This document shows positions 7,426 to 23,152 of a stretch of DNA of 64,000 nucleotides, in pieces; the first letter of the stretch is position 1; each line of letters opens with the position of its first letter. Position numbers and translations under genes: made by a program. The notes beneath the pieces are model-generated. The model saw only the letters and a program-made list of their open reading frames with translations, made no database searches and had not been told where the DNA came from. This DNA comes from Mesoplasma lactucae ATCC 49193 (GTDB lineage: Bacteria; Bacillota_I; Bacilli_A; Mycoplasmatales; Mycoplasmataceae), in the NCBI RefSeq assembly GCF_002441935.1, contig NZ_CP023668.1, positions 186,001 through 250,000 of the forward strand, written 5' to 3'.

Positions 7426-7452
7426 GGGACAATTTCATGATTTTTATCTTAT
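7426..7452 (+). promoter_or_regulatory. GGGAC-N16-TCTTAT element, copy A
   Basis: GGGAC at 7426-7430, 16 bases, then TCTTATTC from 7447. It lies just after the preceding terminator and 95 bases before the lipoprotein start at 7548. It matches the copy in front of recA in both boxes and spacing. The lipoprotein also has a possible ordinary TATAAA at 7510, so the target of this copy is unclear. Confidence 0.55.
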
Positions 7453-7547
7453 TCTTTATTAAAGGCACAAAACTTAAATAATACAAGATACATATATAAG
7501 TGTGTTTGTTATAAAATTAAGTCATAAAATTGAGGGAGAAAAATTTT

Positions 7548-8321
7548 ATGAAAAAATTATTATCTATATTAGGAGCCGTTGGTTTGACTGCAACAGCTTC
7601 TAGTTCAGTTGTTGCTTGTTCAAGCGACAAAGCAACTGTTAAAGTCGATGGGAACATCATAGAAAATGATGCTAAGACAATGAAGTTTACTATTAGTCAA
7701 GGTGACGCTTCTAAACTTGGGATTATTAAATTAACAGATAGCACATATTCAATGAATAAAGATGATGGAATGGATTTAAACAATCTTATATCAACAAGTA
7801 AACAAGCATTACTTTCTACAGTAACTTGTGATCCATCTACAGGTGTTGTAAACGGATTAATGAGAGCAGCAGTTAATATTCCAAATAACTCACAAGTTAA
7901 ATTCAAACTTGCTAATAAACAAGTTTTAGGAATTGATTTAAAAGCTGATTTAGTTGCAAACACTTTTTATTCACCAGATTTAAAAGATATCATTATTGAT
8001 AACTCAAATGGAGATACAGTTGTCAATGCACAATATAAATTATCAAAACCAAAAGACAAAGAAGGAGTTTATGAACCATCAACAATTGCCTTTGATAGCA
8101 AAAGTATTGCTGCTAATACTTTAATTGGAGTAGTTGTCCTTTCAGAAGAAACAGCTTTCAAAAGCGATAATGGAGTTAATATCTCATATGATCAAAGTAC
8201 TCATGTTGTAATCATTGCTCCATCAAATACCACTAAAAAAGCTGATTTACAAAAAGCGTTCACAATGAATAGTGCTGATCCTTTATCTTGAAAATTAGTT
8301 GTTTCAATTCAAATTGCTTAA
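7548..8321 (+). CDS. Lipoprotein, small paralogous family member 1
   Basis: 257 residues. I chose ATG 7548, which follows GAGGGAGAAA at a good distance; a TTG at 7530 in the same frame lies upstream of that SD and would spoil the signal peptide. The leader MKKLLSILGAVGLTA ends in the lipobox VVAC with Cys24, followed by SSDKATVKVD. The body has no transmembrane segment and no motif I recognise. An internal TGA (8289) is Trp near the C-terminus (WKLVVSIQIA). The leader and first residues of the mature chain are nearly the same as in the next gene, showing recent duplication. Expected location is the outer face of the membrane; function unknown. Confidence 0.9.
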
Positions 8322-20071: not shown

Positions 20072-21028
20072 ATGGCATCAGCAAATAACTGATTCCCAGG
20101 GCACATGAATAAGGCTCTGAAAGAAATTGAAAATTTAATTGAGGCTGTTGATGTCGTTGTTGAAGTTGTTGATGCACGTGCTCCTTATTCAAGTCAAAAT
20201 CCAATTTTCCGTCGTGTTTTAAAAAACAAAGCTGTGATTTATGTCATGAACAAAGTCGATGTAGCAGATCCAGAAATCACTAAACAATGAGACGAATATT
20301 TTAAAACCCAATCTGATCATAAATATGTTTTAGAAGTTGAAAAAAATTCTCAAAATATTACTAATAAACTTGTGAATTTAATTAATGAAGCCACTAAAGA
20401 ACGACAAGAAAAAATGAAAAGAAAAGGGTTAGTTAATCCGCAAATTAACGCCTTAGTGATTGGTTTACCAAACGTTGGTAAATCAACTTTTATTAATAAA
20501 ATTGTTAAAGGTAAAAAAGTTAAAGCTGGTAATAAACCAGGATTAACGCGCGGATTACAACGAATTACTTTAACTAAAAATATTACTTTAATTGATACAC
20601 CAGGAATTATGCCTTCAAAAATTCCAAATGAATCAACTGCATGTAACTTAACAATGATTAACTCAGTTAAAGAAGGAGTTTTTTCTTTAGAAAGAATGGC
20701 TGCTCGTGCGATGCGTTATGTTTATAATAACTATCCTGGAAGAGTTGAAGAAAGATATGATGCAAGAATTGGTTTAATCCCTCCAATTGAAATTAGTGAT
20801 ACTTACCGTGTCTTTGAAAAAATTGCTAAGAAAAACAACTGAGTATTATTAAATGATATGTATGATGTTGAACGAGTAATGCTAACTTTTGTTCGTGATT
20901 TACAAAACGGTAAATTAGGAAGAATGAGTTTTGAAACTCCAGAAATGATTGAAGATTTATCAATTGAAAAATCAGAAAAAGATGAAGAAATTGAGGATAA
21001 AACTGTTGATGTTACACAAGAATGATAA
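20072..21028 (+). CDS. rbgA: Ribosome biogenesis GTPase YlqF/RbgA
   Basis: 318 residues. Needed for late 50S assembly in Bacillus. The GTPase is circularly permuted, which identifies the family: NKVD (G4) comes first, near residue 60, then GLPNVGKST (G1) near 130 and DTPG (G3) near 174. The N-terminus WFPGHMNKAL is the family signature. The C-terminal domain ends in an acidic tail and WTrp from TGA. SD AAAGGAG, TATAAT at 20041. Its end overlaps rnhB by 20 bases. Confidence 0.96.
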
Positions 21029-21638
21029 TTCAAGATGAGAATTTGATAATCAATACCGCAAAAATGGCGAAATAATTGCTGGATGTGATGAAGCTGGACG
21101 TGGTGCTTTAGCTGGACCAATCGTTGTAGCTTCAGTTGTTTTTCCATCAGATTATCAAAATCCAGAAATCAAAGATTCTAAAAAAATGACAGCTTACCAA
21201 CGTGAACTTCAATTTGAAGAAATTAAGAAAAATGCTTTAAGTTATTCAATTGCCATTCTTTCAAAAGAAATTGTTGAAAGAAGAAATCCAAAAGCAACTT
21301 CAATCAAAGGAATGGAATCTACTTTAGAGGATTTAGAAGTTGAAATTGATATTGCTTTAGTTGATGGTGAAAAACTTCCAGACACGCACGATTTTGAAGC
21401 AATTCAATTAATCAAAGGTGATGATAAATCTTTAACAATTGCTGCTGCAAGTGTTTTAGCAAAAGTAACAAGAGATCGTATTATGGATGATTATGATGAA
21501 ATTTATCCTTGATATGGTTTTAAAAATAATAAAGGTTATGGGACTAAAACACACATGGATGGTTTAAAACAAAAGGGTGCAAGTGATATTCATCGTCGCA
21601 CTTATAAACCAGTTAAAGATGTTTTGAAAAAAAGTTAA
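21009..21638 (+). CDS. rnhB: Ribonuclease HII
   Basis: 209 residues. Cleaves RNA in RNA/DNA hybrids and at misinserted ribonucleotides. The catalytic DEAGRGALAGP motif starts near residue 27; later motifs are DSKKMT, the acidic VDGEKLPD, and AAASVLAKVTRDRIMDDY. I chose ATG 21009 in the overlap with rbgA because it is the only ATG upstream of the DEAGRG motif in this frame without an intervening stop; GAGGAT nearby could serve as SD. The rbgA-rnhB order is conserved in Firmicutes. Confidence 0.93.
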
Positions 21639-21659
21639 TTTTTTTCTTATTAAAAATCT

Positions 21660-21836
21660 AATGACTTATTGCTAAGTATCGTGTATCTTAAAAAAGGGTA
21701 GTCAAGGAGTTGATTACTTACACAAAAGAATGGAAACATTTTTTTAACAACACAATCAAAGCAACAGGATTTAAGCGGTCCTGACTAGATAAAATAAATA
21801 TAAAAACATTCTCGTGAGTAAGGAGAATGTTTTTTT
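21660..21836 (+). other. Noncoding stretch after rnhB with hairpins and a strong terminator
   Basis: No convincing gene. Visible structure: GTAGTCAA (21698-21705) with TTGATTAC (21710-21717), flanked by GTGTA/TACAC; CAGGA (21765-21769) with TCCTG (21779-21783); and a terminator of 11 bp (21803-21813 with 21823-21833) ending in TTTTTT. The segment may be an unassigned small RNA or simply the rnhB 3' end. Its relatively GC-rich patch at 21760-21785 stands out from the surroundings. Confidence 0.35.
21803..21836 (+). terminator. Terminator downstream of rnhB
   Basis: AAAACATTCTC pairs with GAGAATGTTTT, nine-base loop, then a T-run. Confidence 0.85.
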
Positions 21837-21864
21837 ATTTTTTTAAAGAAATTTAAAATAATTT

Positions 21865-21891
21865 GGGATTTTTTATTAACTTTTCTCTTAT
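21865..21891 (+). promoter_or_regulatory. GGGAT-N16-TCTTAT element, copy C, in front of a structured RNA
   Basis: GGGAT (21865-21869), 16 bases, TCTTATTC from 21886. The structured RNA begins at 21895, where transcription would be expected to start (about 21898). Confidence 0.6.
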
Positions 21892-21894
21892 TCT

Positions 21895-22013
21895 AATGTG
21901 AGGGAGAAGAACGGAATCCGCTATATGATAAGTTTTTCGGCAAAAACAATTAAATAGGTATTATTGAGAGGTTTTCTTATTTAATGTCATATCCAATCTT
22001 TTCTCTCACCATT
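21895..22013 (+). ncRNA. Novel candidate RNA with three-way junction
   Basis: A closing stem P1 pairs 21895-21910 with 21997-22013 (about 16 bp with G-T wobbles and one bulge). Inside, P2 pairs 21923-21929 with 21986-21992. P2 encloses exactly two hairpins: GTTTTT/AAAAAC with loop CGGC (21932-21947) and ATTAAATA/TATTTAAT (21949-21985). Only a few unpaired bases separate the helices, so the junction is compact. A 3-bp CGG-CCG hairpin sits at 21912-21920. There is no start codon behind the GAGGGAG in its 5' arm. It does not show SRP, tmRNA, 6S or known riboswitch signatures that I recognise. It may be a free RNA or an upstream element of the ssb-dprA transcript. Confidence 0.6.
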
Positions 22014-22068
22014 ACATTGGTGTTCAAAATCTAATATTTAAACTTTTAAAATAATTTCACAAAAATGT

Positions 22069-22094
22069 GGGATTATTTTTTATTTTCTTCTTAT
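22069..22094 (+). promoter_or_regulatory. GGGAT-N15-TCTTAT element, copy D, in front of ssb-dprA
   Basis: GGGAT (22069-22073), 15 bases, TCTTATTC from 22089; the SD GGAGGAAG follows and the ATG is 21 bases after the second box. No TATAAT nearby. Confidence 0.65.
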
Positions 22095-22115
22095 TCTATA
22101 TTGGAGGAAGAGAAA

Positions 22116-22424
22116 ATGAATAATGTAATTATGATGGGAACTCTTGAAGGTGACGCAGAAGTTATCTACACTAGTCCTGATGGAAATAAAAGTTTATATA
22201 AATTTTTATTAAAAGTTCCAAAACCTTATAAATCTAAAGATGGGACAAACCCACCAGAAGATTTAGTAAATATCAAAGTTTGATCAACACAACTAACTGA
22301 TGAATATATTCTTCATGACCAAGCATATGTTGGAATTGAAGGAAGAATTAATTCATATGCTGGCAAAGATTATAAAAATGTTGTCAACGACATCATTGCA
22401 AACAAGGTAATTTACTTAGCTTAA
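22116..22424 (+). CDS. Small single-stranded DNA-binding (OB-fold) protein
   Basis: 102 residues. The N-terminus MNNVIMMGTLEGDAEVIYTS and the strand pattern LYKFLLKVPKPY, VNIKVWSTQL, AYVGIEGRINSYAGKDYKN, IIANKVIYL follow the OB fold of SSB proteins. It lacks the acidic C-terminal tail (DDDIPF type) that recruits partners, so it is not a typical housekeeping SSB; it resembles the short second SSB-like proteins linked to recombination. The start is ATG 22116 behind GGAGGAAGAG. Its stop overlaps the dprA-like start (TAATG), so the two are translationally coupled. Confidence 0.75.
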
Positions 22425-23152
22425 TGCAAATGGATAAAGTTCTTTTACACTTTGCTTTGAAATATGATGGTGAATGAGAAAAAATCTATGATGCACTTGA
22501 TAGAAAAGAAAAAATCAGTGCTAAAGATTTAGAAACAGTTGAAACAAAAATCAATTGTAAATATATGACAATCCTAAACCCCTTATACCCTAATAATCTA
22601 AAGAATTGTCATCGTCCACCATTTGTTATCTTCTATCAAGGAAAGATTGATTTACTAATTAACTACTATAGTATTTTTACTTATCTTTATGAAGAAGGGC
22701 TTGAACCAACAACCATTAGTGATTTTGAAAAAATGACTAAGAGTTTTGTGAAAGCTGATAAAACTTTCTTATTAGGTAATTTAAATTTAATGTCTAACTT
22801 TATTAACAAAACCATAAAACAACAAACTGATAATTGAATCGAATTAAAAGATGCGATTAAAGATTGTCCTGACACTGAAACTACCCTTTATATCAGTGAA
22901 GCATACGAAAAGAATGCAAACGACAAATGATTTATTAATCGCGTCTTACCAGGTTTAGCAACTGCAACGATTGTTTTAGAAGCTAATCGTGGTTCAGAAG
23001 TTGATGACGTAATTAAATATGGAATTAATGAAAATAAAGAAATATTTGTTTTACCCCTAGCAACAAATATTAAAAAGAAAGTTAATAACTTTTTAATCAA
23101 ACAAGGTGCTAAATTAATTGAAAAACCAAGTGATGTTTTGAACGAATTTTAA
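22424..23152 (+). CDS. dprA: Diverged DprA/Smf-like DNA processing protein
   Basis: 242 residues, shorter than the usual 280-360. DprA loads RecA on incoming single strands in transformation. Support: YPNNLKNCHRPPFVIFYQGK (family YP..L..i.dpP.vLf.rG) and, near the C-terminus, NRVLPGLATATIVLEANRGS...ENKEIFVLPLATN...NFLIKQGAKLIEKPSDVL, which follows the family order RNRIIAGLS..vvVvEA..SGS...gReVfAVPG..N.LI..GA. The central nucleotide-binding motif SGGARGID is not recognisable, so activity may be altered. Alternative start ATG 22430. Coupled to the SSB-like gene upstream. Confidence 0.75.

Follow-up and report, generated by a model that had tools for sequence, protein, structure and literature searches.

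Does the folded stretch at 21895-22013, which lies between rnhB and the ssb-dprA operon of the mollicute Mesoplasma lactucae ATCC 49193, represent a small RNA that is transcribed with this operon, or a spare promoter copy followed by neutral sequence? Coordinates are positions within the window, that is, the 64,000-nt stretch of contig NZ_CP023668.1 that was analysed. The genome is a single contig of 837 kb in which TGA is read as tryptophan, and the three neighbouring proteins were identified with Pfam (Table 1). Positions 1-84 of the contig (G000:C1) are repeated at 837388-837471 as an 84-base untrimmed circular overlap. We tentatively favour a reading that falls a little short of being probable, namely that a sigma-H-like, competence-type promoter drives an untranslated RNA of ~185 nt ending at a terminator that overlaps the ssb promoter.

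Table 1. Features of the rnhB-ssb region and of the loci compared with it. L numbers name loci.
Feature	Position	Strand	Basis
Third window copy of the motif, upstream of lipoprotein gene (7551-8321)	7426-7456	+	motif pattern, matrix
rnhB (ribonuclease HII), upstream gene	21021-21638	+	Pfam PF01351, E 8.9e-35
Strong terminator hairpin AAAAACATTCTC...GAGAATGTTTTTTT, closing the hairpin-rich stretch 21655-21845 before the motif	21802-21843	+	sequence; fold of 21656-21850
Copy C: -35-like GGGATT 21865-21870, -10-like TATTCT 21889-21894, spacer 18	21846-21894	+	matrix score 27.8
Folded body: P1 13+3 bp, P2 6 bp, P3 6 bp, P4 10 bp	21898-22009	+	RNA folding, pair by pair
Predicted transcript, start about 21900-21902, end at terminator	21900-22086	+	motif position and 6-7 nt rule; fold -41.9 kcal/mol
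AT-rich terminator-like hairpin, 14 bp, loop AAAA, -11.5 kcal/mol, T-rich tail	22048-22086	+	folding
Copy D, promoter-like site of ssb-dprA: GGGATT 22069-22074, TATTCT 22092-22097	22069-22098	+	motif pattern, matrix
ssb	22116-22424	+	Pfam PF00436, E 5.4e-6
dprA-like gene (DNA_processg_A)	22424-23152	+	Pfam PF02481, E 1.9e-14
Divergent sigma-70-family gene, M. lactucae; congener	L142 1204-1797; L143 1357-1947	-; +	region 2 search
sRNA-like units, outside the window	L086 about 6686, 6565, 6452; L085 about 6615; L083 about 7461; L084 about 489, 395	all -	scan

The element that precedes the RNA (21846-21894) has further copies in the genome. Its core is bipartite, with GGGATT or GGGACA separated from TATTCT by 17-18 bases, a promoter spacing. 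We take the -10-like TATTCT to differ from the -10 of Firmicutes sigma-H. With a motif matrix built from four entries, all outside the window, the sites at 7426, 21865 and 22069 scored 31.0, 27.8 and 27.1, respectively; a one-base shift of copy C (19.4) aside, the next-best window site reached 14.9, and the best score in any of 60 shuffled windows was 20.6. The pattern GGGA-N19/20-TATTCTW gave ten matches in the genome versus two for the reversed control, one place entering the count twice owing to the 84-base overlap of the contig ends, and its numbers in ten relatives were at background. Sites precede ssb-dprA, the lipoprotein gene, a secreted-protein gene (100574), a HAD phosphatase gene (817429) and the RNA, and further sites belong to a Fic-family gene and its paralogue near the contig ends (837409, 836080). 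At two of the four hairpin-rich loci described further below (L083 7561-8304 and 6141-6866, minus strand) the element precedes paralogues, a Fic-domain protein with HKFNDGNKR and one without this motif. The bases of copy C next to the -10 (TATTCTAATG) depart from the consensus TATTCTATA/TTTA. The element was also considered as a coding repeat (KKKFKIIWDFFQFF) and this was rejected: the start codon is lost in two copies, the window copy is frame-shifted and no other protein match was obtained.

Among the relatives, a related T-rich/-10-like sequence stands before ssb, and in the congener G001 the motif precedes a peptidase-C39 transporter. In G013 it (TTTTTTTCTAATCCTATATAGGAGG) lies before the genes of a small membrane protein and of a protein whose DUF4131 match falls narrowly short of the curated cut-off; DUF4131 is the N-terminal domain of ComEC. 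Copies C and D, together with the similar motif before the ComEC-like gene of G013, give the RNA and competence genes a promoter motif in common. The preliminary description had assigned the RNA to "the same regulon". As far as the DNA motif goes, this has good support, given the score of copy C, the motif before ssb-dprA and a second sigma factor, but the match between that factor and the motif is presumed.

Mollicutes, to our knowledge, are regarded as having kept hardly any regulators or alternative sigma factors. A search with sigma-70 region 2 recovered the primary factor and one further, weak match in both M. lactucae and G001. These weak matches are sigma-70-family proteins of 196-197 aa (197 aa in M. 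lactucae) with 46% identity, and in both genomes the gene lies between rlmB and rpmG-secE; we interpret the gene preceding rlmB as the 3' portion of cysS. NCBIfam placed the protein in the sigma70-ECF superfamily (E 1.8e-6) and near SigI-like proteins (E 2.5e-7), all below the curated cut-offs, and a low-confidence structure model (pLDDT 63.6) matched mostly sigma factors with E above 0.01. The gene and its synteny are direct observations, and we infer that its product is cognate to the GGGAtt/TATTCT motif.

Comparison with known systems gives this gene its context. MG428 of Mycoplasma genitalium is linked to recombination, and we know of no noncoding RNA in its regulon. It is cited as an alternative sigma factor in PMC5138195, and the candidate here would be another such factor at work in a mollicute. 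The cysS-nusG locus is the sigH site in many Firmicutes (PMC3364868). In Lactobacillus sakei, sigma-H activates dprA and com genes. Judged by gene order, the putative second sigma factor of M. lactucae occupies this sigH-type position, so that the genome does encode a candidate for the second sigma factor that a separate regulon calls for. As far as the available parts of PMC3364868 and PMC3486894 describe them, the sigma-H regulons of L. sakei and Staphylococcus aureus are alike in having a second sigma factor at the cysS-nusG locus and dprA and com targets, whereas the mollicute protein has diverged strongly and scores under every curated cut-off; those parts mention no noncoding target. The regulon part of the interpretation, now with a candidate sigma factor, is supported at the level of sequence.

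The fold of 21895-22013 itself has an energy of -30.1 kcal/mol versus -19.4 +/- 3.1 kcal/mol for dinucleotide shuffles (z -3.49), and none of 200 shuffles was as stable. An equal or lower z was found in 39 of 1278 same-length windows on both strands of the window and a raw energy as extreme in 50 of 3196, so the fold alone belongs to the top few per cent and is not unique; on its own it is a moderate signal, not a striking one. Pair by pair, the 16 bp earlier given for P1 were recovered as 13 continuous pairs (21898-21910 with 21997-22009) and three pairs (21913-21915 with 21992-21994) across a 2x2 internal loop, and P2 comprises six pairs instead of the seven described. Joints with only 0-2 unpaired bases are found at the P2/P3/P4 junction, but between P1 and P2 eight unpaired bases lie on the 5' side. 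Derivation of the P1 arms from further promoter copies was rejected, since local alignments were no better than shuffles.

P1 closes over the SD-like GAGGGAG, which, as had been noted, has no start codon at the usual distance; at this position, after the same -10, ssb and the G001 genes have their ribosome-binding sites. The pyrimidine arm complementary to GAGGGAG is present as well, but the purine run finds an equally good partner in the pyrimidine tract of the upstream motif (12 bp), which makes base composition part of the explanation. Pairing of the P1 3' arm with other Shine-Dalgarno sequences, also proposed earlier, found no support: its complementarity to the start region of ssb amounts to 8 bp (AGAGAAAA), and the window contains this word 11 times. 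The stretch lacks a long open reading frame, in line with the earlier view that it is noncoding, but two short frames are present, of 16 codons from ATG 21984 and of 19 codons from GTG 21898. The 16-codon frame (21984-22034, MSYPIFSLTITLVFKI) overlaps the P1 3' arm, continues past P1 and may encode a short hydrophobic peptide.

These properties bear on the possibility that the stretch, transcribed or not, is functionless, consisting of an extra promoter copy and neutral sequence whose fold arises from purine/pyrimidine tracts and AT-rich self-complementarity. The 3% of window stretches that equal the fold by z, and the equal pairing of the P1 purine run with the motif's own pyrimidine tract, fit such an origin; the absence of any equally stable fold among the 200 shuffles and the closing stem of 13 continuous bp speak against it. 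A non-functional promoter copy is a quite possible explanation, nearly as plausible as the co-regulated RNA.

The model of a co-regulated RNA was built on the rule from Mesoplasma florum that transcription starts 6-7 nt after the -10 (PMC7745072). Read by the second sigma factor, copy C would give an RNA that starts at about 21900-21902 and stops at the hairpin 22048-22086, the 3' arm of which overlaps the -35-like GGGATT of copy D. With this start P1 would lose its outermost 2-4 pairs, and the remainder still folds. The resulting transcript, untranslated and about 185 nt long, would form a unit of its own that is regulated together with the ssb-dprA competence operon, and read-through would add a second upstream start for ssb-dprA. 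An independent sRNA should have a promoter and a terminator of its own, and both are predicted here (copy C and the hairpin 22048-22086). The RNA is probably transcribed with the ssb-dprA regulon, and its exact placement from promoter-like motif to terminator speaks against neutral sequence.

The same arrangement could also be read in cis, with copy C as a second upstream ssb-dprA promoter and the folded RNA and hairpin as an attenuator or spacer that slows entry into ssb. Strand and motif are the same as those of ssb, the terminator-like hairpin lies directly before ssb, and a CACCA...TGGTG hairpin 3' of P1 competes with the P1 end. However, relatives with ssb after rnhB get by with a single promoter-like site immediately upstream of ssb, no competing structure that would abolish the terminator was observed, and the stretch is without a ligand-type conserved core and without homologues. 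We consider a cis-acting leader rather improbable.

A separate RNA of this kind has counterparts in pneumococcus. There, srf-01 and srf-29 are measured noncoding transcripts directly behind a ComX promoter, with function not known; srf-01 lies next to an IS element, and srf-29 precedes a competence gene and has a terminator at its end (PMC6560143). The RNA here would be alike in being a noncoding RNA directly behind a competence-sigma-type promoter and, as with srf-29, in being ended by a terminator before a competence gene. It is unlike them in that the transcript is predicted and theirs are measured, and in its other promoter sequence and other class of bacteria; no sequence relation is expected. 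Competence-sigma-dependent noncoding RNAs are therefore already known in pneumococcus, and the RNA of M. lactucae would add one. The judgement that srf-01, although driven by ComX, is unlikely to be functional (PMC6560143) in turn favours neutral sequence.

The RNA had been called undescribed, and the database searches agree. In Rfam 15, the search of which had been suggested beforehand and was run at two thresholds, no family reached the gathering threshold for the stretch, the best sub-threshold match being Yfr11 (25 bits, threshold 44) outside the three-way junction. BLAST in 60 relatives gave no homologue of the RNA, and plasmid and phage collections gave no match to it. A covariance model from the single sequence, applied to 119 genomes, found only the RNA itself convincingly and no homologue to align; the best foreign match (G039, E 0.016 per genome) equals the chance expectation over 119 genomes. 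The RNA was likewise found in none of six relatives from a contig scan based on an SSB alignment (Williamsoniiplasma, Mesoplasma, Spiroplasma and others). This lack of conservation in the 60 and 119 relatives again favours neutral sequence.

In G001, the only congener compared, the RNA is missing at the same place: ssb follows ~70 bases after rnhB, with a terminator-like hairpin and then TTTTTTTCTTATTCTATAACGGAGG between them, and other relatives with ssb after rnhB have a like layout without the RNA. Since G001 and these relatives are without it, 21640-22046 would be an insertion, or a lineage-kept sequence, between rnhB and the terminator-plus-promoter of ssb. By this comparison, the ~400-bp stretch holding the RNA appears lineage-specific. 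One form of insertion would be the remnant of a MITE, a mobile inverted-repeat element that entered a promoter copy with TA duplication. The stretch does have imperfect terminal inverted repeats of ~16 bp with TA at each end, and excision yields TTATTCTACATTGG, near TTATTCTATATTGG of other motif copies, but several copies with common terminal inverted repeats were not found: BLAST, the terminal-repeat pattern and the covariance model gave no second copy, and plasmid and phage records were without a match. Because the sequence is single-copy, a MITE is highly improbable. The part of the stretch between rnhB and copy C (21655-21845) is noncoding and hairpin-rich; its 3' end folds with a z of about -4.9, and this part may represent a further small RNA or the 3' end of rnhB.

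If a sigma-H-type factor and its motif before ssb-dprA and before the ComEC-like gene of a relative hold true, natural competence of mollicutes becomes directly testable. The co-regulated RNA would then serve as a reporter of the regulon and as an example of a small RNA that one lineage acquired together with a promoter copy; as a by-product, it would still mark a clean promoter for finding targets of the sigma factor. The RNA is a prediction from the fold, the motif and the terminator-like hairpin, and any function of it is putative. We regard action of the transcript in trans as a regulator as unlikely. Less likely again is the widest reading, in which the mollicute keeps a working sigma-H-like competence regulon (GGGAtt/TATTCT) that includes a dedicated structured sRNA between two promoters, tuning ssb-dprA or other uptake genes.

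Four other loci of the genome end with the same element and are rich in hairpins. A relation of the RNA to them was rejected, alignments being no better than shuffles, and for 21640-21845 a relation was at most marginal and to one locus. These loci hold seven short sRNA-like units on one plan, partly in tandem (Table 1): a TAaAAT box, ~20 variable unpaired bases, a hairpin (e.g. GTTTCGAAAGAAAC), an A-rich linker (AACACATC-like) and an intrinsic terminator. The same scan found no such unit in the window and, over roughly 900 kb of other loci, about three that are ascribed to chance; at gathering thresholds, Rfam gave no match to the units. An exact copy of the last unit's variable segment lies ~260 bp downstream, 19 nt long in L085 (6382-6400 and 6641-6659) and 17 nt long in L086 (6215-6231 and 6476-6492). 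These repeats differ between the two loci and sit in the hairpin-rich stretch that ends with the GGGATT/TATTCT element, and changes in the hairpins appear compensatory when L085 is compared with L086.
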